A DNA stretch of 64,000 bases, taken from contig NC_092661.1 in assembly GCF_032118995.1 (NCBI RefSeq), positions 17,335,506 to 17,399,505 on the forward strand, read 5' to 3'. Both the position numbers and the translations under genes were made by a program. Positions 1 to 58,159 of the stretch are shown here, in pieces (within the stretch, counting starts at the first letter, position 1; each line of letters begins with the position of its first letter). The DNA comes from Asterias amurensis. Its lineage: Eukaryota > Echinodermata > Asteroidea > Forcipulatida > Asteriidae. The notes under the pieces were generated by a model that was not told where the DNA came from, ran no database searches, and saw nothing but the letters and a program-made list of their open reading frames with translations.

Positions 1-1227
1 ACCGTACCGTTCACTATCTCAACGTAAACGAATTCAAACCTTTTCCCTCATGACCCACAAAACCACATGACCTTTATACTTGGAACCAAACTCAACCCAT
101 GTATAGTTCCGGGGGAAACAAACGATAGGTTTGACCATGATTTGACCATCCTCTCCGGATGTTGGTTGAATATATCCTTTCACTCACATGGACGAAAGAG
201 AGCATTTCTATACATCACATACTCTCATATTGTCAAACCACATTGTTGTGTTGTAAAATTAAATCGAAATTGTTACAAAAAACGTATTAAAAGTAATAAT
301 TTACTCCGAAACTTTCAATCCCAAAACTCAGTATTTTTAATGGAGGAGGGGGGTCTTCAATATCAACAACAACAAAATTCCCCTGTGCCCCCCCCCCCCC
401 CCTCCCGACCCCTTGTACGTAAGTTGTGTTGCATAATGATGGTTATATTCTTTCTTAAAATAACTATAAACCAATGGGATGGAAACAGTAAATCTAATTT
501 GTTTCATCCTTTTAAGTATTTGATTGTAATACAGTTATTTATGATACCCACTGGTTACGATTATGACAACCGAAGACTACTAAACCAATGAATACAAAAT
601 AGTTGCCAAAATAGACTCAAGTTGAAGTTTTGCGTAGAACAATAAATGCCAATGATGATTATTTACAAAACAAGTAGCCACAGTGCGGTTCAGCGTTGAA
701 CTGTTTTAATATGAATTCATGATTCACTGATGAGTAAAGTTTGACGTGAGTATTTCAGTGATCTCGTTAGCCTGGTGTTTTGCGACCCAGACCCACCACA
801 CATTGACATTGGGCCAGCATCGCGTGCTGGAAATGGTAAAGATACTTTCCCTGTTTACGATTTGTCGATTCCAATTAAACAAAGACTAATTTACTAAACT
901 CAAGGTTTTGAAAAGTACAGTCACTCGCATATTGTTCTCTGATCGAGCGTGCACAATATAAACGTGCCTTATAAATTATGTTGTTATGTAGATTAATTGT
1001 AACTCATAACATTAACCAATTTTTGCTCTGAATCTTTCTCTTGCGAAACAACAACAACAACAAAGACAAGACAAGGCAAGACATTGCGTGTATTCAGTGT
1101 CGGTGTCCCGGTCGTTTGGTTTCCAAATTTTACACGACGACACGACGAAATAATTTTCCCATGATTTTAAGTTGTTGTGTTACTCGTGGAAAGAATTTAC
1201 TTGTCATCAGACTCTAGTCTACATCTA
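1..1227. other. Non-genic flank, no gene recognised
   Basis: No convincing coding region is visible. An open frame of 174 codons at 67-591 has no recognisable domain and runs through a poly-C tract near 387-402, so it is treated as chance. The DNA is AT-rich with short CAA runs near 1050. Confidence 0.5.
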
Positions 1228-1434
1228 TCTATACTATTAAAAGCGTAACCCGCGCCATCTTGGATTGAAAATTAGAAGGTCCAGTGGCATGGCATTCTTG
1301 TGGAAATCAACACGATTAAGTGTGTGGAATTCAATACGTTTGTGTGGTTTCAGACGTCGGGTTGCAAGTCTACAAAACCCTGATCCAAACTCCCACTTAC
1401 AAGTCATCTGATTGGAGAAAGTTTGGGCAGCGAC

Positions 1435-1830
1435 AGTGTGTCAACCACTGGTCGATGTTGTTACCAGACATCCTAGAAATCTTTCTGACAGCCGACTCAT
1501 TGAACAGTGTTTCGCAGATGGTTCTCCGGATTGGTTCACTCATTGCCCCTTGCCTGCCCACCCGCCATTCGATCAGCCCTTTTTGGTCGGGTTACTTTCA
1601 TGTTGTACTAAGCATGGTTTTCCGGATTGGTTCATTCATTGCTGCGCAGGGTCGAAAGGGTCGAAGAGGCTGGGTGCCAGGACAAAACCGAAACAAATCT
1701 CACGAATTTGCATTGAATGGTTGAAGTAACTCACAGATTGTTGTTTCGCAGAATACCATGTGTCAACCACTGGTCGATGTTGTTATCAGACTTCCTAGAA
1801 ATCCTAGTGACAGGTGACTCATTTGTTGAA
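1435..1830. repeat. Diverged direct duplication (~85 bp) inside Helitron-like copy 1
   Basis: The segment at about 1436-1520, containing TCAACCACTGGTCGATGTTG, recurs at about 1758-1830 with substitutions. Similar internal duplications of about 72-75 bp are present in copy 2 at 39.6-39.9 kb. Confidence 0.6.
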
Positions 1831-3139
1831 AAGATTAAATGGAGAATACTTATTTGAAAAAACATTCACTTCCAAACGGCATGAGAATTATCATGATGGA
1901 CAAGGATGGGATCAAACAGAAGCTTTATAATTTGGAAACATTGGGTAGGCCGGCTATAGGTTGGAAGGTGTCTCAGGGAACTTTACAATTAATAACATTT
2001 TGGGGTGGGGGGGGGGGGCTTTACACAAAGAGCCAATAACCGCTCCTTACATTCTGGTCAGTGTATTGTGAGTGGTGTGGTGTTTGGTTTTGAGACACAT
2101 GTTGCTTGGTGAAGGAAAGGTTGAAAGTGGCGACCTCAGACTTGCAAAAATCTCCATACAGAAATTGCACTATTGATGCAAAACGTATCTTGCTGTTTTT
2201 AAACTATGGACGTTATCTTTTGCAGGAAACTCAAATGAGTACCTGAATACCGTCTTAGAATACGGTCTGTTCATGGAGGTATGGTGTTGCAGTTTCAGAG
2301 TTTACCCCATCACGGAAGTTTGTGAAACTTATACACGTACGACAAAGGCTGTTTTGAAGCTGTAAAAAGAACTTTGCATTGGTCAAACATGTTAAGCAAA
2401 ACGACATTAAGTTTCCTTTTGAATAAGTCCATTCAAAAAATTGGTTAGAGCAGTGTGTCGGTCAGGTCTCAGAATGTACATTTGCCAAACCCATTTTGTA
2501 GCCTAGTTTAGCAGTCGGTCCGTTATTAACAAAAAAGACCTCATGCGGCTGAATGGGGTACATTTTTAGGAGTTTGTCTATTGACCCAAACTGGACGTAA
2601 CAAACCCTAAAAATAACTTGACATGCTTTCTCAAAGTGAAATAAGTTAGAGAAAATTAAGGAGTGAGGATGAATTTATCGTTTTTATTTAGTTTGTACGA
2701 TATAGGGTTCCAGAGATATGGGATGTATGGAGGTTTGTTCCTAGAGCAGCTGTGAACATGAACGCGGTCAGAAATTGTGTCTGTTGTCGTTAAAATTTCG
2801 TGAGATGCAATAAGCCCAAAGTGACAAAACACTTTTTTGGCGTTCACGTTAAGTGCTCCCGTAACGTGCAGCCTATTGACCAGAAAGTTTACAAGACCAA
2901 TTCAGATGAGAATAAACTAAAAAGAGGCCCTACGCTCTTACCGCCCCCCCCCCGAAAAAAAAACCTAAAACAGTAGATTTGTGGCACACAGCATGTGCGA
3001 AAACTCGCTTTACTTATACTACAGTGCTGTAGCAACGCTATGTATCGTGGGACGTGAAAATGTCATTTTTGACGATGTTTTTTAAAAAGGAAATGCAAGC
3101 ATTATGAATGTATATTGAGCGTGTGGGGAAAGTTTTGGT

Positions 3140-6100
3140 AGTGTAGTACAACGTATACACAAGTCAATGGGAAACCACACAACCATACACAAGTCAAAGG
3201 GAAACTACACAACCATACACACGTCAATGGGAAACTACACAACCATACACAAGTCAATGGGAAACTATACAACCATACACACGTCAATGGGAAACTACAC
3301 AACCATACACAAGTCAATGGGAAACTACACAACCATACACAAGTCAATGGACACTTCACAACCATACACAAGTCAATGGATTGACACAACCATACACAAG
3401 TAAATGGGAAACTACACAACCATACACAAGTCAATGGGAAACTACACAACCATAACCAAGTCAATAGGACACTTAATACAACCATACACAAGTCAATGGA
3501 AAACTACACAACCATACACAAGTCAATGGACAGTTCGCAACCATACACAAGTCAATGGGAATTGACACAACCATACACAAGTCAATAGGAAACTACACAA
3601 CCATACACAAGTCAATGGGAAACTACACAACCATACACAAGTCAATGGGAAACTACACAACCATACACACGTCAATGGGAAACTACACAACCATACACAA
3701 GTCAATGGGAAACTACACAACCATACTTAAGTCAGTGGGACACTTCACAACCATACACAAGTCAATGGGAATTGGCACAACCATACACAAGTCAATGGGA
3801 AACTACACAACCATACACAAGTCAATGGGAAACTAAACAACCATACACAAGTCAATGGGAAACTACACAACCATACACAAGTCAATTGGAAACTACACAA
3901 CCATACACAAATCATGGGAAATTACACAACCATACACCAATCAATGGGAAACTACACAACCATACACAAGTCAATGGGAAACTAAACAACCATACACACG
4001 TCAATGGGAAACTACACAACCATAAACAAGTCAATGGGAAACTACACAACCATACACAAGTCAATGGGAAACTACACAACCATACACAAGTCAATGGGAC
4101 ACTTCACAACCATACACAAGTCAATGGGAAAATACACAACCATACATAAGTCAATGGGACACTTCACAACCATACACAAGTCAATGGGAATTGACACAAC
4201 CATACACAAGTCAATGGGAAACTACACAACCATACACGAGTCAATGGGAAACTACACAACCATACACAAGTCAATGGGAAACTACACAACCATAAACAAG
4301 TCAATGGGAAACTACACAACCATACACAAGTCAATGGGAATCTAAACAACCATACACATGTCAATGGGGAACTACACAACCATACACAACTCAATGGGAA
4401 ACTACACAACCATACACAAGTCAATGGGAAAATACACAACCATACATAAGTCAATGGGACACTTCACAACCATACACAAGTCAATGGGAATTGACACAAA
4501 CATACACAAGTCAATGGGAAACTAAACAACCATACACACGTCAATGGGAAACTACACAACCATACACAAGTCAATGGGAAACTACACAACCATACACCAA
4601 TCAATGGGAAACTACACAACCATACACAAGTCAATGGGAATCTAAACAACCATACACATGTCAATGGGGAACTACACAACCATACACAACTCAATGGGAA
4701 ACTACACAACCATACGTAAGTCAATGGGACACTTCACAACCATACATAAGTCAATGGGACACTTCACAACCATACACAAGTCAATGGGAATTGACACAAC
4801 CATACACAAGTCAATGGGAAACTACACAACCATACAACGTCAATGGGAAACTACACAACCATAAACAAGTCAATGGGAAACTACACAACCATACACAAGT
4901 CAATGGGAAACTACACAACCATACACAAGTCAATGGGAAAAACTACACAACCATACACAAGTCAATGGGAAACTACACAACCATACATAAGTCAATGGGA
5001 CACTTCACAACCATACACAAGTCAATGGGAATTGACACAACCATACACAAGTCAATGGGAAACTACACAACCATACACGAGTCAATGGGAAACTACACAA
5101 CCATACACAAGTCAATGGGAAACTAAACAACCATACACAAGCCAATGGGAAACTACACAACCATACACAAGTCAATTGGAAACTACACAACCATACACAA
5201 ATCATGGGAAATTACACAACCATACACCAATCAATGGAAACTACACAACCATACACAAGTCAATGGGAAACTAAACAACCATACACAAGTCAATGGGAAA
5301 CTACACAACCATACACAAGTCAATGGGAAACTACACAACCATACACAAGTCAATGGGAATTGACACAACCATACACAAGTCAATGGGAAACTACACAACC
5401 ATACACACGTCAATGGGAAACTACACAACCATAAACAAGTCAATGGGAAACTACACAACCATACACAAATCAATGGGAAACTACACAACCATACACAAGT
5501 CAATGGGAAAAACTACACAACCATACACAAGTCAATGGGAAAATACACAACCATACATAAGTCAATGGGACACTTCACAACCATACACAAGTCAATGGGA
5601 ATTGACACAAACATACACAAGTCAATGGGAAACTACACAACCATACACACGTCAAAGGGAAACTACACAACCATACATAAGTCAATGGGAAACTACACAA
5701 CCATACACCAATCAATGGGAAACTACACAACCATACACAAGTCAATGGGAATCTAAACAACCATACACATGTCAATGGGGAACTACACAACCATACACAA
5801 CTCAATGGGAAACTACACAACCATACGTAAGTCAATGAGACACTTCACAACCATACATAAGTCAATGGGACACTTCACAACCATACACAAGTCAATGGGA
5901 ATTGACACAACCATACACAAGTCATTGGGAAACTACACAACCATACACACGTCAATGGGAAACTACACAACCATAAACAAGTCAATGGGAAACTACACAA
6001 CCATACACAAGTCAATGGGAAACTACACAACCATACACAAGTCAATGGGAAAGACTACACAACCATACACAAGTCAATGGGAAAATACACAACCATACAT

Positions 6101-7350
6101 AAGTCAATGGGACACTTCACAACCATACACAAGTCAATGGGAATTGACACAAACATACACAAGTCAATGGGAAACTACACAACCATACACACGTCAATGG
6201 GAAACTACACAACCATACACAAGTCAATGGGAAACTACACAACCATACACCAATCAATGGGAAACTACACAACCATACACAAGTCAATGGGAATCTAAAC
6301 AACCATACACATGTCAATGGGGAACTACACAACCATACACAACTCAATGGGAAACTACACAACCATACGTAAGTCAATGGGACAATTCACAACCATACAT
6401 AAGTCAATGGGACACTTCACAACCATACACAAGTCAATGGGAATTGACACAACCATACACAAGTCAATGGGAAACTACACAACCATACACAAGTCAATGG
6501 GAAACTACACAACCATACACAAGTCAATTGGAAACTACACAACCCTACACAAGTCGATGGAAAACTAAACAACCATATACAAGTCATTGGGAAACTAAAC
6601 AACCATACACATGTCAATGGGGAACTACACAACCATACACAAGTCAATGGGAAACTACACAACCATACGTAAGTCAATGGGACACTTCACAACCATACAT
6701 AAGTCAATGGGACACTTCACAACCAAACACAAGTCAACGGGAATTGACACAACCATACACAAGTCAATGGGAAACTACACAACCATACACAAGTCAATAT
6801 GACACTTAATACAACCATACACAAGTCAATGGGAAACTACACAACCATACACAAGTCAATGGACACTTCACAACCATACACAAGTCAATGGGAAACTACA
6901 CAACCATACACAAGTCAATAGGACACTTAATACAACCATACATGTACACAAGTCAATGGTAAACTACACAACCATACACAAGTCAATGAGAAACTACACA
7001 ACCATACACAAGTCAATGGGAAACTACACAACCATACACAAGTCAATGGTAAACTACACAACCATACACAAGTCAATGGGAAACTACACAACCATACACA
7101 AGTCAATGGGAAACTACACAACCATACACAAGTCAATAGGACACTTAATACAACCATACATGTACACAAGTCAATGGTAAACTACACAACCATACACAAG
7201 TCAATGAGAAACTACACAACCATACACAAGTCAATGGGAAACTACACAACCATACACAAGTCAATGGGAAACTACCCAACCGTACACAAGTCAATGGGAA
7301 ACTACACAACCATACACAAGTCAATGGGAATACACACAGCCATACACAAT
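3140..7350. repeat. 30-bp minisatellite array, about 140 units, with higher-order repeats
   Basis: Tandem units of 30 bp carry the core CATACACAAGTCAATGGG. Variants recur in fixed order (GGGACACTTC, GGGAATTGAC, GGGAATCTAA, CATACGTAAG), showing higher-order duplication. The GGGAATCTAA variant lies at about 4341, 4641, 5752 and 6294; the 542-bp and 1111-bp spacings are roughly 18 and 37 units. The rare ATCATGGG variant at 3911 and 5201 marks a 1290-bp (43-unit) duplication. Because 30 is divisible by three, several frames on both strands stay open and give decapeptide repeats such as GNYTTIHKSM. These are judged not to be genes. Confidence 0.95.
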
Positions 7351-7794
7351 TATGCGTGAGATTTTTCAAAGCTCAAATCCGAAATTTAATTATGGACAAA
7401 AAAAGTGTTCCAAATGCATCAAAAACCTCTTCATAATAATTAAAACTAACATGAGGTACACAGAATATGTTGATGGTTAATGTCGAGGTACAATTGTGTC
7501 AGATTATTTCCTTCCAAACTAACAAAAAAATTACTAAAAATGATGTCCAAAATCCTCCGCTCACTTCCTCTGCCTGTTGTGTCTTCGCTAGTGGAGCGCA
7601 TTTAACGAGTTTGCTAAGTGAATCGGGAAACGCTTATTGCGCTCTGCCGAATTTTAGTTGAACCTTCTGGAAGAGCAAAAGCGTGTGCAATCTGCAAATT
7701 TGTGCTCTGTTTGTACAAAGTTTGTACAAAAAACGATGATTCTAATAAACTGCGTGCAATCTGAAGATTGTGCAAACATTGTGGATCCCGCTAG

Positions 7795-8349
7795 TATTAA
7801 TGACGGAGGTTAATCCACTAGATGGCGCTATTTCGTGTAATAATGTATTGGCTATCATCATGCAGATAGACTAAAAACAACAACCACAGACTTGGAACAA
7901 AGAATAGCTAGAACTCTGGAGTGAAAATAAGATCACCCATGAATCACAAGCCCTATTTTCTATGGGTAGACTGTTACGGCTGAGACTGTTGCCGTCGATC
8001 CAGCCGTAGCCAGTAGCCAGTAATGCGGAAGCGGCCTCAAGACAGCAATCAATTACATGACGTCATTTTGTAAACCATTGAGGCTCCCACGGTAACAGGT
8101 GCTGCTTTACTCACATGTTAGTGCGCTCCTGAAAACAAAAAAACCTTACCGTGTTTTTCCAAATCATCGTTGCAAACCTAATTTCATCTGGAATTAACAA
8201 AAATATATTTCATAGAGAGCCCCTTTCAGGATAATTTAATAAAACAAATAAGAAACGTTTGTCTTCTACTCAAGCTTTTAAAAGAAAATTATAAGCCGCT
8301 TCACTAAGTTGACACTTGGATATTACTCCGCAATACGGAACCGCTCAAC
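7795..8349. other. Intergenic, probable upstream region of the GTPase gene
   Basis: No coding region or clear repeat copy is seen. The stretch lies directly upstream of the proposed GTPase start codon and should contain its promoter and 5' UTR, but no TATA or other core element stands out. Confidence 0.35.
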
Positions 8350-11300
8350 ATGGGCACTGGGTGCAGCGTAAACAATGGTGGTAAGTTTTAAATAAAATGT
8401 GTATTTCTGTTTGATTGCTAGGCGTCTCAACAAAGAAGAAGAATGTATTAAGATTTCTTACTTATATGTAGGCTTCCAGAGTTATTATTAAATGTTTGGA
8501 GGGCTTAAAATATGGGGAGAACCTTGCCCACACTGAGAGTGCCAACTCGACCGGAAAAGGCCATAGTGTTTGCACATAGATAGTTTTTATGTCCACGGCA
8601 TGCAGTCGGCAAAACTTCCGTTCTGTTCCGTTGTTTATCTGCTGGCAAACCTGCCGGTGTCGCATGCAAATTATGTTATTGCATACGCAATAATGTCTGC
8701 CGAACGGTTTTGCATATACAATACAATCGTGTCCGCCCGGACGCTGATGCATAATATGCAATTGTGTCCGCCCGGACACAATTGCATATGCAGTTGTGTC
8801 CGGGGTACCGGTCAACTCGGTTGCAAGCCAACTCGGTCCCAAGTCAACTCGGTCCCAAGTCAACTCGGTCCCAAGTCATCTCGGTCCCAAGACAGGGAAG
8901 GTGGGGAGGGACCGCAACCCAAGTTATTTGAACAATATTAGCCTATATTTGTTATTTATTTTCGACCAAACAGTAATTTCCTTAATAAATTTATTTTTTT
9001 AATTAATAGATTTTGGATATTATTTATTATTCTTATAAGTTAACTTGAAAGTTTTCTTTATAATTTAACCAAACATTAATTTCCTTTCTTCATTTTTTAA
9101 TATTTGCGTAATTCGTACTGTTTTTAATATTATTTAATTTTAAATGTAATTTACTTCTTGAACAGAAATCAAAGAGGATTCAATTATTAATGTTTGTCAA
9201 TTAATGAATTGTTGAGAGCCATACAGAAAACAATGTACCCTGGTGGTTGAAAGAGATGTTTTTTTTTAGTTGAAATTTAATGGCCAACAAAATTGGTAAT
9301 TTTCAAAAGTGATTGTTGAATATAGAAACAAATAGGTCTATATTGAAAGCATCGAATATTATACCCTGAACATCGGTGCACACTTATCATGAACAAAGTC
9401 AAAGGACATTATTTTTTTTTTTTCCAATTCAAAGAAAACATACAATTACTTCCCGTCAACCATATGGACCGAGTTGACTTGGGACCGTGTTGAACCCAAT
9501 TGGTTGTCGAAGTTCGAGATAATAATGAAATAAAAAACACCCTTGTCACACGAAGCTGTGTGCTTTCAAATGCTTGATTTCTAGATCTCAAATTCTAAAT
9601 CTGCCGTCACAAAATCAAATTCGTGGAAAATTACTTCTATCTCGAAAACTATGTTACTTCAGAGAGAGCCGTTTTTCACAATGTTTTTCAACAGCTCCCT
9701 ATAACTCATTACGAGGTAAGGTTTTATGCTAATAATTATTTTGAGTAATTACCAATAGTGTCCACTGCCTTTAAAAAAACGTTCCCTGCTATGGTGCTAG
9801 TATTAAAGAACCGAAACTATAGTTTCTAGAAGTACCCTGCTACCAGTTGGTTAAAGTTTACCAGTCAATTACTTGATACTGTTTTGTGAATTGTTATTAT
9901 CTTTGTTTGATTTCAGACCTTGCTTACCAGGGATTTGGTGACGTGCCTAGCTTCAAAATAGTCTTAGTAGGTAAGTGTGTATGGCCAGTAACTAACATGG
10001 TCAGCCATTTATGCATTTTTGACTTGCATAAATGGCCGACCGTGTAAGTTTGCAAAGTAAAAGGTAAGCACGCAATTTCGAGGCAAAGTTGTGTGGATCA
10101 TTGTATTCTACTTTTAAAACATCTTTCCAACCATATGCATTTATTAACAAATGGTTACAAATGCTTTTTATAGACCAACTGGACCGATCCAAGGCAATTT
10201 GTCCCTTTAAAGCCATTATACACTTTCGGCACAGAAAAAAAAGAAAAAGTTCACAGATTTACAAATAACTTACAGGGTTTACAGAAGGTAATGGTGAAAC
10301 ACTTCTCTTGAAATATTATTCCATGAAATGCTATACTTTTCGAGAAAACATTAAAACAATTATCAATTCTCGTTGTCGAGAATTATGGATTTATTTTAAA
10401 CACATGTCATGACACGGCAAAACATGCGGAAACAAGGGTGGGTTTTCCCCGTTATTTTCTCCCGACTCCGATGACCGATTGAGACTAAATTTTCACAGGT
10501 TTGTTATTTTATATAGAAGTTGTGATACACGAAGTGTGGGCATTGGACAATACTGTTAACCGAAAGTGTCCAATGGCTTTAAGATCGCTTTTCTGAGAGC
10601 CTTTGACTTCACAACAAGAATAAATGACTGAAATGAAATGAAACGATCTAGTTCTGTGGTGAGATTGTATTCCTAGTTTCAAATCGTACAATGTTTCTTT
10701 TGATTTCAGGTGATCCCGAAGTTGGTAAGAGCAGTATTTTTATGCGTTACTTCTTGAATCAATTTGACTACAGCTACAGAACGACTACTTCAGTCAGTAT
10801 TGGTGAGTCACATTTGGTAAACTTCAGGATGTTTTTTAGCCGGAATCCTCCAAAATTCAACATCCATAAATTGTCAGACTCGGGGTGTCCTGCATGGACA
10901 ATGTACATTTTTAATAATACCTCTCATGATAGTGGAGGGTGGACTCAAGTTTCCCTTTAAGCTGAAAATTTAGTCGGCTTGCCTTTTAGTCGGATTGCCT
11001 TCCAAAACAGAGGAAATGGCAGACGAAATGCCGTTACAAAATAGTTGATTTCTGGATACCAGTCGCTGTACCTTATTTATACCTATATTATTATTATTCT
11101 TATTATCTGTTTATTTCTCCTCACTGTAGAGAATGTAGTGAAGAAGCTGAATGTTCCAGAGCATATCATCGTATCGGTGACCATTTGGGATCTACCGGGC
11201 CGTGAGGAGGTCGATCTGAGAAAGAGCTACTACAAAGATGTGGATGCTGCAATAGGTAGGCTCCGTTTGGTCTGAATATTTTTCTTTTGAACACAATGTC

Positions 11301-14300
11301 TACAGGTTTACATTAAACTTACACAGTTTGAAGATAATGATATTAGAAAGCGTACCTGAAAATAGTAGTTGCTGAGGTGTTGTAGTTTTTGAAAAATGAG
11401 TAAAACAATGTCATAAAAATACGTTTTTACATGCTAAAATAATTTTCATCTTAAGAACACCGAGACAAAAATTATTTTCATGACATTGTTTTAATCATTT
11501 CTCAAAAACTACAGCACCTCAGCAAGTAATATTTTCAGGGAAGCTTTCCACCAACATTATCTTCAAACTGTGTAAGTTTAATGTAAATCAGTGGACATTG
11601 TGTTTTTTTGTCCTACAAAAAGTACCCAGACCCTTTAAGCCTAAGAAACAACACACTGCACACATGGCAATTTTGCTGGTTTTATTACATTTGCTTTGAT
11701 GGTTCAACTAAATCCAATTTTTAACTGAATTCTTGGGGTGTTGTTAGTGGGATGGACATTCTCAATGCACTGGCTGGACGAGTACATTTTTTTTTTACAG
11801 TTATTTTTATTTCCGCTACATGTTTTATTAGTTGTGGTTAACATTGCTGACAAGGAGAGCATTGAGCTGGCTGGAACATGGAGGCAGGACATCCACAATC
11901 ACTCCGTCATCTCCAAGAAGAAAGTAGAGAAAGAAGGCAAGGTGTCAAAGGTCGTAGTAGAATATGAGAAGGCAGACCCTACTCAGCTTCCTGTACTTCT
12001 GCTTGGGAATAAATATGACATTGTAAGTATGTAGTAACTTGCAAAGTATATTTTCTGTATAGCGCCCTCTCTTGGTTGTTACTGTTTAGTGTTATGGTTG
12101 TTTACAAAATGGCTGCTGTTGAGTCAGTCTTGTATTAAATAAAGCTACGCTCAGTTCAGTAAAGAATTGTCTCCACGACTGCTAAAAACAAAAAAACTAT
12201 GATTTGAGGCATTGCACGGCGAGGTATCAATATATATTTGGTTTGCGGTAACACCATGTGTGTATCTACTGCCAGGTAGAGTTTGTTCTTAGAGAACTTA
12301 AAGGAACGTTACAGAGTTGGTAGGAAACAAAAATCGTGAAGATCACAGAATAACATAAAACTTACATGGTCTAATGCATGATGATAGTAGAAAACATCCC
12401 ATAACATATTGTTGAGAAATAAATAATCTTATTTTGTATTTGGAGTTTATCGCTCAGTGAGCGTTTTATTCATTTTTCTTTTTGCATCGATGTCATGCAA
12501 AAATGGGAAATGGCTTTTCACTATTTTCTCGTGACCCAGACGGCCAATCGATATCAAACTTCTACAAGTTTGTTAGTTTATATATCTGATGGATTACATA
12601 AAGTGTTTACACTACCAGCAACTATTTTGTCCGCAAAACCAATTCTGTAATGTTCCTTTAAATGTGCGCAGTTACTTTTTGTGCTGGAGCAGCTCTTTAT
12701 AAAAAATTCACCCCAAGCGGCTTGCATATAAATGAACATAGCAGCTTCAAACGGTACATGTGACATTTTGACCGACAACCTTATTCTAGTAAGCAAAAAT
12801 GAAATGCGCTTAGTTACTTTTTGTGCTGAATCAGCTCTATAAAAATTAACTCTGGTGTCACCACTCCAGTAAAATCTCTTGATTATCCATCTTTTTGAAT
12901 GTTTGCAGATAGAGGAACGAGAAGCCTTGAAGGAAATCAGTAAAGACGTGGAAGAAATCCAGACATCTCATTCCTCGGATGTCCTGCAAGAAGATGACAA
13001 TAAACCAAATAACCTCATCCTCAGAATCAACTCAAAAGATGGAGCTAAAGAAACCGATTCAAGACCGATTCAGTATGTAATATAGTTTTTATACCGTTCT
13101 TCTCCTTTAAGTTTGTTTGTTTGTTTGTTTGTTTGTTTTATTTCCATTTGTACAACAAAAAATACAACAATGATGATTTCAAGTATATAAATACTGTTAT
13201 AAATTTAAATTAAGTACAAATGGGGGTTGCAGCCAGAGGAGGTAAGACCCTCCTGTAGTGGAGCACTCGAACTGCTATAAAAAAAAAAAAATGCTGCACT
13301 GGTTTCACAAATGAAAGGTGTAATATGAAAGTAAATTATAGTTCTTGCATACATTGTCATTTTCTCCAGTAGTTTGTTCGTCTGTCTGTCTGTCTGTCTG
13401 TTTTGTCTTTGTCTTGTCCTCAGCATGTAACTTTGTTTATGTATTTTGTTTTGTAAAAGCAAGCGGCTACAAGCTACCTGGCTTAGTTGGGGCCTAGCCT
13501 CTGGGCGCTCTACCGCTAATTTATTCTTTCTCTGTCTTTTATATACTTCATGTAGTTCTGTAATTTGTTAGTGGAAATAAATGTGAATTGAATCAAATTG
13601 AAGGAAAAGACGCAGCCTAGATGACGAGAAGACAGATGCGGAGAAAGAGTACATCAGCGGTGATGAGTCGCCGAGGATGAAGGGGAAGATGGAGGATGAA
13701 AGAGTGGAGGAGAGGGATGTCACCGTCTGGAAGTATGAAGAGGAACATGAGCCAGAAGTAGAGCTTCCTGAAGAACTGGAACTCCTTGAGGCAGCGGCGG
13801 AGCAACATGGATTTGTTGGAAGGTAAGATTTAAGTCCACCATCTTTAGGAATCTTTTGACACATTTTGAAGGACCTCAGAAGACTTGACAGGACAGATAG
13901 ATGTATAAATCTGAGTGTCGTCTGTTACGGATGTTCTGTCCAAGAGGAAGAGTATATATCAAAAACAGCAGGGGGGGCCAAGGACTGACCCTTGTTGAAC
14001 ACCAGACAGTAGATCAAGAAGTTGCGAGAACTGACTTCAATCATCCTCATTAGTTAATTCATGTTCTTATTGCATTTAATTGGTGGGTCTTTCACATGAT
14101 GTTGGTTTCGTTGCATTAGTCATCATCTTTCTTGTGCGTGTTTGTAACAGGGGTCAGTTTTATTGTTGCTGTTAATTATTTTCATTATTTTTTTGTACCT
14201 TGTTTTTGTTCTTGTGTACGTTTGTCTGCTTCACATGTGCGGGGTTACATACCTGTTGGTAATAGTTATTTTAGTCTATTTTTGTGACCCCTGACCCCTA

Positions 14301-17300
14301 TCTTCGGATATTTTCATATTCTGCATTTGTTGTTATGGCCCCTACACTCACACTTATGCTACTGTCAGTCTTTTGCGTTTGTTTTGTTGTATTTTGTATT
14401 TCGTAGCTTTCATACATTATTTTTGTTTAACGTTTATCGAACTGTGTTTGTTCATTCCTTTCTTTTCAGTGTTGCCGTCTCGGCCAAGAACTCTGACGGC
14501 GGTGTGGATAAAGCCATCCAGGCTCTGATCCGCCATCTTCTAGAGAGGAAACTCAAAGACAAAGCCTTGCAGAAGATGGAGGCAGTGGAAGTCCGGAGAC
14601 GCAAGAAGAAGAAGACAAAACCCAAGAAGGTTAACCCCGACGACTTCCAACCTCTTGAGAAGACGGACATTGAAGAGGTGAACGATCACTTTAATGGGAT
14701 GTGAATTTTAATTTAGAGAAAGTCCTGTTAAAGATAGTGGACACTATTGATACTTGTCAAAGACCATGCGGTCTTCTCACTTGGTTTATTTCAACATATG
14801 CACAACATAACATACCTGTGAAAATTTGAGCTCAATTATTCGTTGGAGTTGCGAAATAATAATGAAAGAAAGACCACCTTGACTCACGAAGTTGTGTGCT
14901 TTCAGATGCTTCATTTCGGGACCTCAAAATCTAATTCTGCGGTCTTGAAATCAAATTCGTGGAAAATGACTTCTTTCTTGAAAATTACACTGCTTCAGAG
15001 GGAGACGTTTCTCACAATGTTTTATACTATCAACAGCTCTCCATTACTCATTACCAAGTAAGGTGTTATGCTAATAATTATTTTGAGTAATTACCAGTAG
15101 TGTCCAGTGCCTGTAAAGAACTTTGAGTTTAGCCACAAAAACTTCAAAAATATACATCCTTTCCAAGGAATGGATGTGGCTAACATTGATTTAATTGGGT
15201 CATTCGCCCCTGTGTTTCTAGCTGGATTGGCAGCATATTGCGCCACAGCCCCTTGTAAACCATTACATGGTGCTAAGGATTAGGTCTTATACATCAAAAT
15301 TTCGTCCCATGCTTTGCAGTAATAATACCTGGCGCTTTGTATACTTTGGCAAAAGGCGCGTTATGAATACGGTTATTATTATTGTTATTAAACTGACTGG
15401 TGGGGGCCGGTGGAGGGTCAGGGAACCGAGTATTCAGTGCTTTTCATTCATCGGCATAAGGGTAAAACCAAATAATACAAACAATATTCATCTGAGATTT
15501 ACGGCAGCACCATGTGTAAATCTCTGTTGAGTAGTGTTGGTTATGAGATGACCGGTGATTGACAACTCAACTTTTCAATCAGTATGCTCTGATTTATCTT
15601 CAGGAGAATGCTGGGGATCTGTTACTGGATGATGCTTAAGTACTTTGTTGGAGATTAACTGGTAGTTGGGCTTGGCTCGATGGTGCAAGCTACCTGTCAA
15701 TCTCCCAGGAAGTACTTAAGAAGCATCCAGCAACAGAGCCCAGCATCCTCCTCAAGATAATCAGAGAATACTCTTTGAAAAGTTGAGTTGTCGACCCCTG
15801 GTTCTTCTCAGAACCAACACAACTCAAAAGAGATTTACACATGGTGCTACCGCACAATCCCAACTGATTATACTCCCGCCACAGTTTTGAATCTTACAAA
15901 TACATGGAATATTCTTTATCCATTGAAAACAACTGGATGTCATCTTTTAAAGTGAACGTTACAGAATTGGTAAGAAACAAAAATCGTGAAGATCACAGAT
16001 TTGTATAAAACTTGCGGTCTAATGATGATGATAGTAGAAAACATCCCTTGAAATATTTCTGTCAAAAGATTCATATTTGATGAGAAATAAATAATCTAAT
16101 TTTCGCGTTTGAAGTTTATCGCTCAGTGATCGTTTTATTCATGTTTGTTTTGGCATCGATGCAATGCAAAATTTATAATCGGTTTTTCACTATTTTCTCG
16201 CCACCCAGATGGAAAATCGACCTCAAACTTCTACAGGTTTGTCAGTTATTTTATATGGTGGATTAAAGAAAGTGCTAACACTGCCACCAACTGTTTTGCT
16301 AGCAAAACCAATTCTGTAATGTTCCTTTAAGTCTAACCCCCAAAATCTCGACGTTTCTTTTCCCCCACTCCTCAGATGGACAAGCTATTTATGCAGTCCA
16401 ACTTGAGCCTGAGCAGGATTCATGAGACCAGCCTAGCTTACAATCAGTCAGTGCGGCAGTTCAAGAGAGAGTGCCTGAATGCTGGACTCGTGGGCGGTCT
16501 CAAGAGTTCCATTGAAGATTGCATCGGAGGATTGAGAGCAGCCTTGCAAGAACTCAGCCTGGAACTTATGGTGAGGTTTGAAAAGTGGTGGAGATTTAAA
16601 ACAGAAAACTATAAATCTGGATTATTTTTCTCGGAAGAGTTGATTCATTCTTACTGTGTAGTTTCTAGTACGACAAAATTTGGTAACTGTTCATAAAAAT
16701 CTACAAATCATAGGTTATTATTATTATTTATATGGCGCTCTACGGAGAAAGCACTTTACATTAGACTAGGACAAAAAGAAAAACAAACAAACTAGGATGG
16801 GTTGGGGAACAGAAATGTCTTGAGGAGGCTTTTGAACACGGGCAACAAGATTGCCTCTCGTAGGGGAGCTTATTTGATGGCGAACAAGATCCCCAGCTTT
16901 CCGTCTAGGTCTAGGAACATGAAGCTAGGCATCGCAACTATCATGAAGCTATCTCTCTTGAATCAAACCCCCAAAAACCCTTTGTTCCTTCTCTGAGCAA
17001 AAAATTGATGATAAATGAATTTGTTGAAGACATTTGGGGATTAGGTGGAAGCAAACTAAGACTGTCCTAAACTTACCCAGTCAGTTTCCCTTGTGGTTAA
17101 TTACTTGGTATCAAATATTTTTGTAATGAAATTCGCACAATACAAATCAGAATGTTTTTGTTATGTTGATGTTGATTTTTAGACCCAGGACAAGGATGGA
17201 TTTCTAGAGCTAGTAGTTCAAGGTGAAGTCGTCTACGAAGAAGAAAAATCTGAAGAAATTAAGAAAGTCATGGACACTTTCCAGTCAGAGGTGAGTCCTT

Positions 17301-18081
17301 ATCTCTGTTACAATAGGAAGCTTTCGATTCAGGTCGGGAGGAGGGAGGGAAGGGATGGTAAGGGAGCGAAAAATCGATCGGCGCATGCGCAAAACTGAAC
17401 ATATAGGATTGGAACTGCCTCTAGTTACCGGGCATTTTTAGTGGTCTAGTTGGTAAGACACTGCTCTAGAAGAGACTGATCCATTAAGCTCCGCCCCATT
17501 GCGTATTGACCAATCACAACGCAACGAAGGTCCAACAAATAAGGTCCGACATGTGTGCGCGTATATTGGCGCGCGCGGAAGAGTTGTGCAGAAAGGCATT
17601 GGAGAGCCCCACGTGTTCTTGCTCACACATGCGTCGATGGGCGGAGCCTACTGGATCGATCTATTGCAAAGGTCGTGGGTTTGAATACCAGAAAAGTACG
17701 CTATACAGTGCTTACACACATCGGTGTAAGGGTAAAACCAAATTTAATATTCTAAATATCCATGATGCAAATTTAACATCTATTCGACAAATTTCTTGTT
17801 TGATATTCCAGGTTGTAGTTGCTTGCAGTGCCATTCTTTGTGATAACCCAAGCTCTGATGCAGACCTCATCCGGATGGACGCTAAGATCACGGACAGCTG
17901 TTCCCACATGTGGGCCCTCGCCGAGAAGGAGCAGCCACTCAGCCCCAAAGACAAGAAGAAGATCCAGCACAAGGTGGATTACAATCGAGCAAGGATAAGA
18001 CAAGCTCATATCCAGTGTGCACAGAGTCTTCAAGACGTTGATGGTCTGTATAAGAAGATCAAAGCTGCCATGTTATGGTAA
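8350..18081 (+). CDS. Rab-like small GTPase with acylation-type N-terminus, G4-G5 insert and long C-terminal extension
   Basis: Eleven exons join in frame with GT-AG introns: 8350-8380, 9917-9970, 10710-10802, 11130-11255, 11832-12022, 12909-13072, 13604-13822, 14470-14677, 16376-16570, 17183-17290 and 17812-18081, giving 552 residues. Seen: P-loop GDPEVGKS (29-36), switch-I TTTSV (53-57), G3 WDLPGREE (79-86), YYKDVDAAI (93-101) as in Rabs, G4 NKYD (161-164) and G5 SAK (297-299). G4 and G5 are about 130 residues apart instead of about 30; the insert is acidic and charged. The Ras Gln61 position is Arg84 and Ala59 is Pro82. The start MGTGCS fits N-myristoylation with a neighbouring palmitoylatable Cys5, and the C-terminus (KIKAAMLW) has no prenylation cysteine. 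A Lys/Arg-rich stretch (about 330-347) precedes a mostly helical region of unknown type. Inferred role: membrane-anchored, GTP-locked or slow switch. The first exon and the exon 7 acceptor are the least certain. No named orthologue was recognised. Confidence 0.82.
8756..8787. repeat. Near-perfect hairpin in GTPase intron 1
   Basis: Two 15-nt arms (ATGCAATTGTGTCCG and its complement) are separated by CC. Several related CCGGACACAA motifs occur within 8690-8805, suggesting a degraded palindromic repeat next to the foldback element. Confidence 0.7.
8809..9486. mobile_element. Foldback element with 16-bp repeat arms, short copy
   Basis: The left arm carries about five 16-bp units with the core AACTCGGTCCCAAGTC (about 8813-8892). 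The right end has the same units inverted (9468-9486). The interior is AT-rich with no gene. It is the same design as the 61148-62253 element, with GG replaced by GTA in the unit (CTCGGTCCC versus CTCGTACCC). Its right end abuts a truncated M1 copy. Confidence 0.6.
9487..9774 (-). mobile_element. MITE family M1, truncated copy
   Basis: Matches the M1 consensus from the ACCAATTGAG-like segment to the terminal CACTGCCTTTAA. The outer ~100 bp of the other end is missing where the foldback element abuts. It lies in GTPase intron 1. Confidence 0.8.
9985..10210. mobile_element. MITE family M3 (palindromic), half copy
   Basis: Contains the central hairpin around GCCATTTATGC and one full arm of the element at 27701-28076. 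It ends CCCTTTAA, and this TTAA is shared with the next element. Confidence 0.8.
10207..10582 (+). mobile_element. MITE family M2, full copy
   Basis: Runs from TTAAAGCCATTATACACTTT to CCAATGGCTTTAA, flanked by TTAA. Nearly the same sequence occurs at 58768-59141, with a third, inverted copy at 34819-35175. It lies in GTPase intron 2. Confidence 0.85.
11262..11638. mobile_element. MITE family M5, long imperfect hairpin
   Basis: Both halves fold on each other around about 11450, for example CTACAGCACCTCAGCA against its complement near 11370. The right end is ACCCTTTAA; the left end starts within about 7 bp of the exon 4 donor. Confidence 0.75.
12225..12297. repeat. Dispersed repeat fragment (GCGGTAACACCATG type)
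   Basis: The motif GCGGTAACACCATGTG and the flanking CTGCCAGGTAGAG recur inverted at 29270-29410 and in part near 46095-46150 and 15490-15510. It is a fragment of an uncharacterised dispersed repeat. Confidence 0.5.
12298..12661 (+). mobile_element. MITE family M4, copy 1
   Basis: TTAAAGGAACGTTACAGA at the left and TCTGTAATGTTCCTTTAA at the right form terminal inverted repeats flanked by TTAA. It is very similar to 15947-16330. It lies in GTPase intron 5. Confidence 0.85.
13111..13139. repeat. (GTTT)n microsatellite
   Basis: Seven consecutive GTTT units in GTPase intron 6. A (CTGT)n run of about five units lies at 13380-13401 in the same intron. Confidence 0.9.
14728..15116 (-). mobile_element. 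MITE family M1, full copy
   Basis: Begins TTAAAGATAGTGGACACTAT and ends TGTCCAGTGCCTGTAA. Inner landmarks are TGAAAGCACACAA and GGAGCCGTTTCTC, both inverted. It lies in GTPase intron 8. Confidence 0.85.
15197..15390 (+). repeat. SINE-like tail, TTATTATT-ended
   Basis: Shares with 51751-51950 the sequence from a CCCCTGTGTTTCT-like start through CTTTGTATA and a GCG...TTATTATT 3' end. This looks like the 3' half of a SINE or LINE tail. Confidence 0.55.
15499..15858. mobile_element. Long palindromic MITE in GTPase intron 8
   Basis: The left arm from CACCATGTGTAAATCTCT pairs with the right arm ending AGAGATTTACACATGGTG. The arms are about 150 bp with substitutions around a centre near 15680. Direct or inverted SINE and M4 sequences flank it. 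Confidence 0.75.
15947..16330 (+). mobile_element. MITE family M4, copy 2
   Basis: TTAAAGTGAACGTTACAGAA to TTCTGTAATGTTCCTTTAA, TTAA-flanked, near-identical to 12298-12661. It ends about 45 bp before GTPase exon 9. Confidence 0.85.
17438..17745 (+). mobile_element. tRNA-derived SINE split by a MITE
   Basis: The head (GGTCTAGTTGGTAAGACACT) and the B-box part (GGTCGTGGGTTTGAATACC) are separated by a 192-bp insert. The tail has the ACACATCGGTGTAAGGGTAA motif. The uninterrupted SINE at 32125-32315 serves as the empty-site comparison. Confidence 0.75.
17471..17662. mobile_element. MITE with GATCCATTAAGCTCCGCCC ends, inserted in a SINE
   Basis: Terminal inverted repeats run from about GACTGATCCATTAAGCTC to GGGCGGAGCC...GATCGATCT. 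A second copy, inverted, is at 29824-30036. Comparison with the SINE at 32190 (CTCTAGA joined to ATTGCAAAGG) defines the insertion point. Confidence 0.75.
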
Positions 18082-18086
18082 AATCT

Positions 18087-18468
18087 TTAAAGGCACTGGA
18101 CACTATTGGCAATTACTCAAAATAATTGTAAAAACATATTTAGTATTAACAAGCAACGGAGAGCTGTTGATAGTATAAAACATATTTAGAAACGGCTCCC
18201 TCCAAAGTAGTGTAGTTTTTGAGAAAGAAGTTTCACTAAAATATTTGAACTGAATTTGAGACCTTACCTGAGGTCTCAAATTCAAGGCATCTGAAAGCAC
18301 ACAACTTGTGCAACAAGGTGTTTTTTCTTACACTATTCTCTCGCAACTTCGATGACCATATATGAGTCCAAATTTTCACAGGTTTGGTATTTTATTCATT
18401 TATGTTGAGATGCACCAAGAGACAAAACTGGTCTTTGACAATTACCAAAGGTGTTCAGTGAACTTTCC
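18087..18468 (+). mobile_element. MITE family M1 directly after the GTPase stop codon
   Basis: Starts TTAAAGGCACTGGACACTAT five bases after the TAA stop, so it should lie in the 3' UTR or final intron. The centre has the usual GAGACCTTA/TGAGGTCTC hairpin. Confidence 0.85.
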
Positions 18469-18755
18469 AGGGGGGGGGGCTGCTTTTTCCTGGCTAGAAT
18501 TAATGTGTCTTTCAAATGGTTTAAAGTGCTTGGGTAGATTTGCTTAAGCAGAACATATTGCAGAACAATTTTTTGCTAAGCAGAAATGAGCAGGATCCCA
18601 GTGACAAAGTGTACATGTGACAGAGTAGTTTGGCTGATAACCTTATAATCTGGTAAGCAACATGTGGTTGTGTTTAGCTACTTTTTGTGGTTAAGCATTT
18701 TCATGAAATTAGGCCCTGATGATTTAGAACAGTCTTAAGGGATTGTGTTCACTCC

Positions 18756-19000
18756 GGGGCCAAATTTCATAGAGCTGCTTAAGCAAACAATTCTGCTTAG
18801 CAAAATAATCATTGTTAGTAAAATCAGAATACCGGCCAAGACTCCACTCAGTTGTTATGCTAAGTAAACAACAGCTAAATACCAGTCACAAGCAATGTAT
18901 ATGGCATGAAATTTTTGCCAGTAACATGTGTAAAAAAGGGGAGCTATTTTCGTGTTTAACCAAAATATTTGATTAAGCAGCTCTATGAAATTGGCCCCTG
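18756..19000. mobile_element. hAT-like MITE, GGGGCCAAATTTCATAGAGC ends
   Basis: Left GGGGCCAAATTTCATAGAGC and right GCTCTATGAAATTGGCCCC are inverted repeats of about 19 bp, followed by subterminal GCTTAAGCA-type motifs. A target duplication could not be defined. Confidence 0.65.
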
Positions 19001-19156
19001 TTGGCATAGCGTGTGGCTAGATTCTGAGGGTGTCATGCAGTTTTAAATTACTGTTGAGAAGGAAGGTTTCTAAATTACTTTATATTTTTATGCGAGTATA
19101 ATTTGTTTTTACCCTTATAGTGGTGTGTACTTTCATGTTTTCTGTGAACAAATCCA

Positions 19157-19325
19157 AAGGCAAATCACTCGGGTGGGATTCGAACCCCTGACCATTGCAT
19201 TACTAGAACACAGTTCCTACCACCCGACTGATTTGCCGGCAGATTTTTTTCACAGAACTCGGGGAAAGTACTGAGTAAAGGTATACAGTCTTTAGTACAC
19301 ATCAGTGTAAGGGTAAAAATAGTAT
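19157..19325. mobile_element. tRNA-derived SINE, rearranged
   Basis: The inverted B-box-like GGGATTCGAACCCCTGACCA is followed by TTTCACAGAACTCGGGGAAA and ACATCAGTGTAAGGGTAA, which are the SINE body and tail seen at 32125 and 57100. Confidence 0.6.
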
Positions 19326-19332
19326 ATTATAA

Positions 19333-19440
19333 GGGAATCAATGTGTGGTGAAGAGGCTTTCAACTAGTGGTTAAAACCCGCCAAGGCCTGGTTCTTGATA
19401 ATTTCATCAAGACGAAGTCGACCAGTAGGAATGAAGAAAC
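19333..19440. mobile_element. Half copy of the palindromic MITE at 27391-27553
   Basis: GGGAATCAATGTGTGGTGAA through GCCTGGTTCTTGATAATTT matches one arm of the 27.4-kb palindrome; the other arm is missing. Confidence 0.7.
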
Positions 19441-19799
19441 TGTCTTATAAGCACAGGTGCATCCTCGCGGTCACGCCCATGTTTCAACACTTTTTACTGG
19501 TGTTATATCATCCGTTCAAACATCCCCACGTGATGCCCTCTTGACCAATCAGAATGGATGTACTGTAGGTATTTATGAATATTCTTCATAAACATAACAC
19601 AGTATCAAATATTTTTATATGGCCTTGTAAAAAGAGTAATGACAGTGTCCACTTTTAGTACAGTCTAGAAAGTTCCAACTTCAGAATGAAAAGGTAGCTA
19701 AAGAAAATGATGCACTGTTTAAAAAAATAGTTATTTTTGAGACAAATTGCTAAGAATAGTGTTTCAGATATGGATAGAGGCACCATACCAGCAACCAGT

Positions 19800-42271: not shown

Positions 42272-43303
42272 TCAACCATCTTTACAAATAAATCCCATAA
42301 TAACCTTCTTCAAGCCTATTCGGAACTTGACGTTCCCTCCGCTGTATATGAATGGGTTGAGGCAGCTCCCGAAGAACACAAAGACCGTACTTATGGTGCC
42401 AATCCTCAGTGGAATCTCGTGGTTCTGTATGAGGGATATCAACTGAATGATGACGTAGGGTATGGCCATAGTGAAAAAGACCAACACGACCACTATTGCC
42501 GTCTTCAGGACCCCAATTTCTTCTCGGCTGACTGTCGTGGGAAACTTGATTGCTCGAATGGCCGTTCGACCACTTGAGGATACCGATGAGGAGCGTGTTG
42601 AGGGTTCGTTAGACCGGGGTCCACGATAGCATTTCCTAGACTTGTGTAGTCGCTTCTTGTTCACACAGACGTATCTCAGAATTTGCAGGTAACAGGCAAG
42701 GATGAATATGTTCGGTATGAAGCCGTAGCAGGTGAAACAGGCAAGTGTGTAGGAAGGACTATGCAGCCAGTCTATGGTGCACACCACTCTGGTAGGGGCC
42801 CATGAAAACTTCCCCCATCCAACTAAGGGACCGACGGCACTTAGCCCGGACCACACCCAGGGGAAAAGCAAGAAAAACCAGTCCAGTCGTTCGCGGGTCT
42901 TTCTTGAGAAACGAATGCTCTTGACGAAGATGAAACGGTCCAGTGCAATCATACACAGCGTCATGTTGGATGAGAATATGCTGACAGCCTTGATGAAGGC
43001 AATTGTGCTACAAGCAACTTCACCGAAAACCCAGCGCTCCTTAATGAGGGTGATGGCACTGGTCGTCATGACAAAACCACCCAGGCCAATATCCCCTATG
43101 GTTAGGTTGATCAGCAATGCACTGGCCTGCATTTTTATTTTTCGGAGGGTTAGGAATGCGAGCGAGTTGCCGATGACCGACACTGCCGCCATGAGCGAGA
43201 ATAACACGGCGAAGAAAACCCTCTCCTCCCACGTCAGGTTGGCTTCTTCATCGTAAAACGTGGAGTTGGTTGTGCTGCTGTGATTTGCAAATATGGAAGC
43301 CAT
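42272..43303 (-). CDS. Rhodopsin-class (class A) GPCR, single exon, opsin-like but lacking the retinal lysine
   Basis: A 343-residue uninterrupted frame with a CCATGG start context. The extracellular N-terminus has three N-glycosylation sequons (N7, N13, N22). Seven hydrophobic segments carry class A landmarks: N46 in TM1 (IGNSLAF), D71 in TM2, C98 at the top of TM3 and C175 in ECL2 for the disulfide, DRF (122-124) in place of DRY, P282 in TM6 without the usual CWxP, and NPFIY (316-320) in TM7. ECL2, with GPLVGWGKF and VVCTIDW, resembles opsins and melatonin-type receptors. The opsin Schiff-base lysine position (six residues before N316) is Phe310, so it should not bind retinal covalently. 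Expected role: plasma-membrane G-protein signalling with unknown ligand; ICL3 has a Ser/Arg-rich stretch (230-250). Intronless receptors of this class are common in echinoderms. Not assigned to a named orthologue. Confidence 0.92.
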   Translation of the reverse strand: MASIFANHSSTTNSTFYDEEANLTWEERVFFAVLFSLMAAVSVIGNSLAFLTLRKIKMQASALLINLTIGDIGLGGFVMTTSAITLIKERWVFGEVACSTIAFIKAVSIFSSNMTLCMIALDRFIFVKSIRFSRKTRERLDWFFLLFPWVWSGLSAVGPLVGWGKFSWAPTRVVCTIDWLHSPSYTLACFTCYGFIPNIFILACYLQILRYVCVNKKRLHKSRKCYRGPRSNEPSTRSSSVSSSGRTAIRAIKFPTTVSREEIGVLKTAIVVVLVFFTMAIPYVIIQLISLIQNHEIPLRIGTISTVFVFFGSCLNPFIYSGGNVKFRIGLKKVIMGFICKDG

Positions 43304-57163: not shown

Positions 57164-58159
57164 TTAATTTAGGACTTCCCGTATTTTCATGTCGCATTTT
57201 TTGAAGGAGTACGACCAGCCCCTATTGTAGTACCATTGTATCCCGTGTCCATATCCACCCTGGTCACCCCCATAGTAATATTTACCGTTCAGATGTGCCT
57301 TGAAACAGTTATCGAACCACCAGGCGCCTTCGTATATCGATGCACAGTCACCGGGGCTGGAATCGTTGTCAAGATCCCCAGTTGAAAATGGAACCCCATT
57401 TTGTGGGATCATTGAATCCCCTTCTGTACTATCAGCGCTGTATAAGCCAACCGAAAGGGTGTACTTATTTCCCCATACAGCAAACTCACCGTACGTTGCC
57501 CAGTAAGTTTTCCCTTCCCAGTCTTCCAAATCCACTCTGAGTTGCCATTGGCCCGCTCCGGTGAGGTCACGCAGGATATCATTCCCCAACCAGAACTCAT
57601 TTTGTAGATCACCAAACCCAGATTGGTAGTCGGCCCAGGAACGGTGAAAGTTACCAGAGCCGTCTTGTCTCCTCTGGATTACGATCCAGCCTCCTCCATC
57701 TGTCTTCATGTCACAGTAAACCTGCAACAATCTATCAGTCGGTGCATCAGGGTAAATGGTGTATACGCCATTGGTAAGATAGCCGGCTTTAGCAAACATC
57801 AGACATGTACTAAAGCTGGCATCAGTTGGAGTTGAGAGAGCAGGGGTCTCCAAATTCCCATCGTAGTAGACACTTCCTCGTAGACTAACAAAGTCAATGT
57901 TACTGTCAGCTCTATTTGCGTTATTCAATACGCAAATACGTTTATTTATGTGGTAATTGAAGGATGTACAATTGGAATTCATAGAGCAGTCTCGCCCACA
58001 GACTACATGAGAAGATACCGTCTTCCACTGAATTGCATTGTTGAGTAAAGCCCGGTTACTGGCTGGGTACAAGTCTGGTATGAACCATCTCTGTACACTC
58101 CCGCTGCATTGATGTAACAAGAAAGTCAGACAGAATGCTATCATGTCAACTTTCATCAT
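57164..58159 (-). CDS. Secreted PAN/apple plus fibrinogen C-terminal domain protein (FReP, ficolin-like)
   Basis: A single-exon frame. The start at 58159 (MMKVDMIAFCLTFLLHQCSG) gives a signal peptide and about 331 residues; the frame stays open upstream to an ATG at 58249 (361 residues), which would bury the signal. After the signal comes a cysteine-rich segment, HVVCGRDC, NSNCTSFNY and KRICVLNN, resembling a PAN/apple domain. A fibrinogen globe follows, with VYCDMKTDGGGWIVIQRRQD, FWLGNDIL, the calcium-site region DLDNDSSPGDCA, the GAWWFDNC motif, LNGKYYYGG, and the ending WSYSFKKCDMKIREVLN. In invertebrates such proteins act as soluble lectins or immune recognition factors; that role is inferred. 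Its cysteine set for the fibrinogen disulfides looks present. No intron is seen, unlike vertebrate ficolins. A PAN plus fibrinogen pairing without collagen repeats is the main peculiarity. Confidence 0.9.
   Translation of the reverse strand: MMKVDMIAFCLTFLLHQCSGSVQRWFIPDLYPASNRALLNNAIQWKTVSSHVVCGRDCSMNSNCTSFNYHINKRICVLNNANRADSNIDFVSLRGSVYYDGNLETPALSTPTDASFSTCLMFAKAGYLTNGVYTIYPDAPTDRLLQVYCDMKTDGGGWIVIQRRQDGSGNFHRSWADYQSGFGDLQNEFWLGNDILRDLTGAGQWQLRVDLEDWEGKTYWATYGEFAVWGNKYTLSVGLYSADSTEGDSMIPQNGVPFSTGDLDNDSSPGDCASIYEGAWWFDNCFKAHLNGKYYYGGDQGGYGHGIQWYYNRGWSYSFKKCDMKIREVLN

Follow-up and report, generated by a model that had tools for sequence, protein, structure and literature searches.

A predicted Rab-like GTPase of the sea star Asterias amurensis with a candidate acidic insert of about 100 residues between G4 and helix alpha4

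Positions 8350 to 18081 (forward strand) of the 64-kb window analyzed here, a stretch of 64,000 nucleotides from contig NC_092661.1 of Asterias amurensis, harbor a predicted gene for a Rab-like GTPase in which the conserved motifs G4 and G5 are unusually far apart. An earlier annotation made from the letters of the window (hereafter the original prediction) had proposed eleven exons that join exactly in phase to encode 552 residues, and all exons and phases were reproduced. The exons comprise 1659 bases, which are read in frame and without internal stop to yield 552 residues plus the stop codon, and GT..AG intron ends are present at all ten junctions. Upstream of the start codon, an in-frame TAA is found at 15 codons and ATG is absent from 50 codons. 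According to this model, about 100 mostly charged, net acidic residues separate G4 from helix alpha4 in an otherwise complete G domain with G1, G3, G4 and G5. The gene is composed as follows:

8350..8380, forward strand: exon 1, start codon and N-terminus MGTGCSVNNG with a myristoylation-type motif plus Cys5
9917..9970, forward strand: exon 2, beta1 strand FKIVLVG; the Pfam Ras match begins at residue 24
10710..10802, forward strand: exon 3, G1 P-loop GDPEVGKS (residues 29-36) and switch I
11130..11255, forward strand: exon 4, G3 WDLPGRE (from residue 79), in which Arg replaces the catalytic Gln
11832..12022, forward strand: exon 5, alpha3, a charged insertion of ~20 residues before beta5 (by eye) and G4 NKYD
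12008..12019, forward strand: G4 motif NKYD (residues 161-164)
12909..13072, forward strand: exon 6, N-terminal portion of the acidic insert (residues 166-220)
13336..13602, forward strand: 3' end of a dispersed repeat adjoining exon 7 (left limit approximate)
13604..13822, forward strand: exon 7, C-terminal portion of the acidic insert (residues 220-272) followed by helix alpha4 (273-292)
13761..13820, forward strand: alpha4 segment before G5, ELPEELELLEAAAEQHGFVG, from the Rab38 alignment
14470..14677, forward strand: exon 8, beta6/G5 VSAK, alpha5 and the polybasic stretch RRRKKKKTKPKK (residues 335-346)
14480..14488, forward strand: G5 motif SAK (residues 297-299)
16376..16570, forward strand: exon 9, C-terminal extension with two predicted helices
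17183..17290, forward strand: exon 10, C-terminal extension
17812..18081, forward strand: exon 11, C-terminal extension with long predicted helices, stop codon, C-terminus AAMLW

The predicted protein belongs to the Ras superfamily. It matches the Pfam family Ras (PF00071) with an E-value of 2.5e-21 (76.4 bits, cut-off 21.6) and the NCBIfam model small_GTP with an E-value of 3.4e-15, and the superfamily motifs are present as GDPEVGKS, WDLPG, NKYD and SAK. Solved structures in the Protein Data Bank (PDB) point to the Rab branch: among the 60 rows inspected out of 837 matched, the first 52 are Rab/Ypt proteins, as are 56 overall, the other four being Ran/Gsp1. Top-scoring solved proteins are Rab38, Rab9A, Rab7L1, Rab21, Rab9B, Rab23 and Rab32. 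By its best solved Ras-superfamily match the protein thus groups with the Rabs, in agreement with its initial classification as a Rab-like GTPase. Rabs are characterized by the signature stretches IGVDF, WDTAGQE, YYRGA and LVYDIT. The corresponding stretches read TSVSI, WDLPGRE, YYKDV and VVNIAD in this case, as judged by eye, and Arg occupies the catalytic place at which the aligned Rab38 and Rab9A have GQE. Cysteines for C-terminal prenylation are also missing, the last Cys being residue 532 of 552 and the C-terminus reading AAMLW. Since both the prenylation cysteines and the signature stretches are lacking, we term the protein Rab-like rather than Rab. A search of the genome (491.5 Mb in 23 contigs) with the whole protein retrieved, besides the gene itself, only generic GTPases with E-values of 9.9e-6 or weaker, and a second copy was not found. 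The closest other exon belongs to a Rab9-like gene, named from its likeness to Rab9A (29% identity, E 9.9e-6).

NKYD starts at residue 161 and SAK at residue 297, placing 136 residues between the two starts. For comparison, eight GTPase loci were fetched from the same genome, in which 150 of 259 candidates had been scored. The script measured G4-G5 distances of 30 (L001), 32 (L002) and 30 (L005), and by eye we read 29 (L003), 32 (L004) as well as 35 and 30 in L006 and L008, whose G4 or G5 is slightly off the script patterns; the control at 35 is Rho-like. The remaining control, L007, was unreadable, its exon stopping ahead of G4. Hence, the separation of about 130 residues, which had been put forward as unusual, is confirmed: 136 residues were measured as compared to 29-35 in seven of the eight controls. 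The insert starts a few residues past NKYD and finishes ahead of alpha4. Residues 168-272 contain 30% Asp plus Glu and 18% Lys plus Arg, giving a net charge of -13, and their mean hydropathy is 0.328 against a boundary of 0.458, which places them with disordered sequences in a charge-hydropathy plot. The insert is therefore acidic, as had been noted at the outset, and of a composition typical of disorder. When compared with Rab38 by eye, a second, smaller insertion of ~20 residues is seen ahead of beta5, beginning with SKKKVEKEG at residue 129.

Removal of the insert improves the similarity to known GTPases. Deletion of residues 171-273 raised the Pfam Ras score from 76.4 to 88.8 bits. In the PDB, Rab38 gained as well, with 63.4 bits instead of 55.3; the top row was Rab38 (55.3) for the full protein and Rab9A (64.4) after the deletion. 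Rab38 aligns to the full protein in two halves (residues 23-125 and 283-320), and to the shortened protein in one stretch (residues 23-217). The single-stretch alignment together with the rise in score suggests that the residues beyond the insert complete the G domain that begins ahead of it. In particular, EAAAEQHGFVG at the end of exon 7 and SVAVSAKN...ALIRHLL in exon 8 align with KEHGFVGWFETSAK...LVKHIL of Rab38. As part of ELPEELELLEAAAEQHGFVG aligns to Rab38 just before its SAK, exon 7 would partly encode ordinary G domain. Exons 6 and 7 had been regarded as two extra exons; they do account for an excess of ~100 residues, but the last ~20 codons of exon 7 resemble alpha4.

Coding bias was assessed against 5000 equal-length stretches from outside the exons of this gene and the training open reading frames (ORFs); these background windows overlap and may include unmodelled exons. 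Stretches that are stop-free and score at least as well as exon 6 made up 5 of the 5000, and none reached exon 7. The short exons 1-3 are unremarkable in this respect (462, 271 and 223 of 5000 background stretches as good). The insert alone retrieved no family from Pfam, no match from the PDB and only itself from the genome, each at E 10. Likewise, in a genome search at E 10 with all 5 candidates scored, the protein encoded by exon 6 retrieved only itself, so that its origin as part of a repeat was dismissed. A DNA search with the region from intron 5 to 13460 gave no match over exon 6, a weak negative, as the best 40 of 5232 candidates were considered and the known repeat ending at 13602 was missing among them. 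In the literature, no paper was found on a long insertion in a Rab GTPase domain or an atypical Rab of this kind, again a weak negative. A high-copy dispersed repeat occupies 12295-12665 of intron 5 (~80-92% identity, 39 other copies among the best 40 of 5232 candidates).

Downstream of G5 the protein continues with alpha5, the polybasic stretch and ~190 further residues. A C-terminal extension of ~250 residues had been claimed, and a long extension is indeed supported, with ~190 residues beyond the polybasic stretch. For this tail, Pfam yielded nothing above cut-off, and neither a PDB relative nor, apart from the self-match, a paralogue in the genome emerged at E 10. The better of two Pfam matches of the C-terminal piece, Sey1_3HB (E 0.015; 14.7 bits, cut-off 24), was attributed to chance. 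AlphaFold2, run on single exons without relatives, modelled exon 9 as two helices (mean predicted local distance difference test score, pLDDT, of 79 for the best of five models, 64-69 for the others) and exon 11 as three helices, two of them long (best of five, mean pLDDT 69).

At the opposite end, the N-terminus MGTGCS, which we take to fit the PROSITE-type N-myristoylation pattern, fits dual lipidation, i.e. a predicted myristate and a Cys suited for palmitate. ARA6/RABF1 and Plasmodium Rab5B are small proteins not known to carry such an insert and tail. They are anchored by an N-terminal Gly2 with nearby Cys and have no C-terminal lipid motif, according to an excerpt of PMC3912013, features that recur here, but they are of the Rab5 type. 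The solved proteins nearest to the sea star protein, all but Rab21, are in or related to the Group III Rabs, which comprise Rab7, Rab23, Rab29, Rab32 and Rab7L1 in the relevant section of PMC3425129. Rab38/Rab32/Rab7L1 and Rab9/Rab7 provide, with Rab21, the best-scoring structures, and the pre-G5 segment HGFVG...SAK is common with Rab38. In contrast to these, the present protein lacks the catalytic Gln and C-terminal cysteines, its Rab signatures are degenerate and it has the ~100-residue insert and the long tail. Rho proteins possess an insert helix of ~12 residues after G4 and before G5 that touches the effector, as stated in part of PMC4432619. Judged by motif order, the acidic insert probably lies in the same stretch, but it has ~100 acidic residues instead of about 12, the rest of the domain is Rab-like and no Rho protein is among the 60 of 837 PDB rows; the protein therefore does not classify as a Rho. 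Rab44, Rab45/RASEF and Rab46 are large as well and also contain a Rab domain in a long protein; as far as a portion of PMC8303950 describes them, they carry N-terminal additions (EF-hand, coiled coil) and a C-terminal Rab domain. In the sea star protein the GTPase domain is N-terminal instead, and no EF-hand is among the seven Pfam families listed at E 10.

Taken together, we consider it rather probable that the gene encodes a divergent Rab-related GTPase with an acidic insert, an assessment that chiefly concerns its anatomy as read from the motifs. The functional steps that may be attached to it are tentative. The protein could be tethered to membranes by an N-terminal myristate at Gly2 and a palmitate at Cys5, replacing C-terminal prenyl groups as in ARA6 and Plasmodium Rab5B. 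Arg in place of the catalytic Gln might slow down GTP hydrolysis, leaving the protein mostly GTP-bound unless a GTPase-activating protein acts. The insert, at the stretch that contacts effectors in Rho, may serve as a flexible acidic arm binding partners, and the helical tail may act as a scaffold or dimerization part. If the insert is translated, the loop between G4 and alpha4 of a Rab-type domain would tolerate ~100 residues, as compared to about 12 in Rho.

Several observations weigh against this reading. Lipidation and slow hydrolysis are deduced from motifs, and structure models of single exons from single sequences are weak evidence for the tail. The second half of the domain is also poorly recognized in isolation: a 48-residue piece covering alpha4, G5 and alpha5 retrieved Rab38 only at E 0.075, under two unrelated P-II entries, a 135-residue piece (end or second half of the insert, alpha4, G5, alpha5) found no Pfam family at E 10, Ras included, and Pfam splits the domain into two stretches even without the insert, the best covering 24-126. 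As the second half is weak when tested apart, the argument rests on motif order and collinearity. The use of exon 7 is the weakest link of the gene model. At junction 6-7, the exon 6 donor scores lowest of the ten (-1.3; donor weights are approximate) and the exon 7 acceptor is the least pyrimidine-rich of the ten (7/17). Moreover, its AG (13602-13603) consists of the last base of the adjoining dispersed repeat, presumably a non-long-terminal-repeat retrotransposon, and the first base beyond. The repeat has 39 other copies among the best 40 of 105 candidates; of these copies, 14 end exactly at 13602 and 25 between query positions 159 and 232. It is thus conceivable, if unlikely, that the repeat removed the old acceptor region and exon 7 is often or always skipped, leaving a 5-6-8 product without alpha4 that would be switch-dead or partly decayed. 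Exon 7 is symmetrical (phase 2-2) and the 5-6-8 transcript stays in frame; phase matching therefore constrains exon 7 less than had been claimed. The phases do join exactly, but to exclude an artefact on these grounds was too strong in view of the symmetry of exon 7 and its poor acceptor at a repeat boundary. The 5-8 transcript, which the original prediction had named as the refuting one, would shift the frame and could not encode the rest of the protein. Exon 7 skipping is opposed by several findings: its 72 codons contain no stop, and no background stretch was both open and as coding-like; its donor is strong (7.1); its end aligns to Rab38 before the SAK of the latter; and the repeat copy diverges by ~19-25% from eleven aligned copies, as though it had inserted long ago and the frame had persisted since. 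As exon 7 is open and domain-like, we read the repeat as an old insertion into which splicing of exon 7 has settled. We listed other possible donors for exon 6 and acceptors for exon 7, the latter between 13480 and 13720. Acceptors giving exon starts at 13604, 13610 and 13616 all leave the frame open and differ by up to 4 residues, and further AGs within exon 7, ending before 13658, 13676, 13703 and 13715, keep the frame and alpha4 with an insert up to 37 residues shorter; the acceptors within the repeat that look better, with exon starts at 13556 and 13572, either run into a stop or put the exon in the wrong frame.

A similar doubt concerns the tail, which could belong to another transcript. 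The exon 8 donor (GAG/GTGAAC) has the second-lowest score (2.5), the reading frame of exon 8 continues past it as far as a stop at 14702-14704, and ATG stands at the beginning of exon 9. Conceivably, the prediction joined two genes, one for a GTPase that stops at 14704 and another, made up of exons 9-11, for a helical protein. AATAAA/ATTAAA words at 15387, 16086 and 16262, and none within 18081-19500, would agree with this view, but they are distant from the stop and uninformative. As the exon 9 acceptor is the most pyrimidine-rich of the gene (16/17) and joins in phase, we regard such a fusion as improbable and exons 9-11 as likely part of the same transcript as the GTPase exons. RabTitans are large proteins. 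Elias et al. put them forward as a group of the last eukaryotic common ancestor. The group is doubted in PMC3425129, where members from lancelet, Dictyostelium and Naegleria are described, all without C-terminal cysteines and distant from Rabs. Two further papers mention RabTitan, one as a protein of patchy distribution (PMC6057913) and the other as an ancestral Rab for which no kinetoplastid member was found (PMC5399786). The original prediction had stated that no nameable family matches; it passed over this described, disputed group, whose likeness is by description only. On the missing cysteines RabTitan is the described group that fits best. It is quite possible, though we would not count on it, that the protein is a RabTitan orthologue, in which case insert and tail might be family features and not novelties. 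Weak Rab similarity, absence of C-terminal cysteines and the lancelet member in PMC3425129 favor orthology; the comparison was made by description. If the insert is translated, the gene would provide a concrete animal protein to probe what the disputed group is.

Returning to the divergent Rab-related GTPase with its acidic insert, a bolder and decidedly speculative version would be a switch of the Rab clade with three altered control points, namely dual N-terminal acylation in place of prenylation, Arg for the catalytic Gln and an acidic arm of ~100 residues at the Rho-insert site, in which the retrotransposon 3' end supplies the splice signal deciding on inclusion of alpha4, giving rise to GTP-competent and GTP-incompetent forms. 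The boundary of repeat and host DNA falls on the acceptor of exon 7, which the fold seems to require; here the rebuilding of a splice site by a mobile element could be tested directly.

Further features were noted in the window. A tandem array of ~139 copies of a 30-bp unit extends over 3155-7349 and would account for the abundance of long open frames in this stretch; of four ORFs taken from the array, none matched Pfam above cut-off. On the reverse strand, 42272-43303 encode a rhodopsin-type seven-transmembrane receptor in a single open frame (Pfam 7tm_1, E 8.5e-39) and 57164-58273 an ORF with PAN and fibrinogen C-terminal domains (Fibrinogen_C, E 4.3e-66). Tandem arrays of closely similar 16-bp units (GTCAACTCGGTCCCAA / GTCAACTCGTACCCAA) are located at 8811-8891, 61155-61293 and 62086-62245, the last one inverted. 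Elsewhere in the genome, contig 5 carries two full-profile COX1 copies with internal TGA codons (658874-660214, L030, and 675294-676634), which represent either mitochondrial DNA transferred to the nucleus or a fault of the assembly. Contig 23 contains a COX1 gene that, in keeping with an echinoderm genome, reads without interruption when translated with the echinoderm mitochondrial code (table 9), including 8 AGA and 9 AAA codons.

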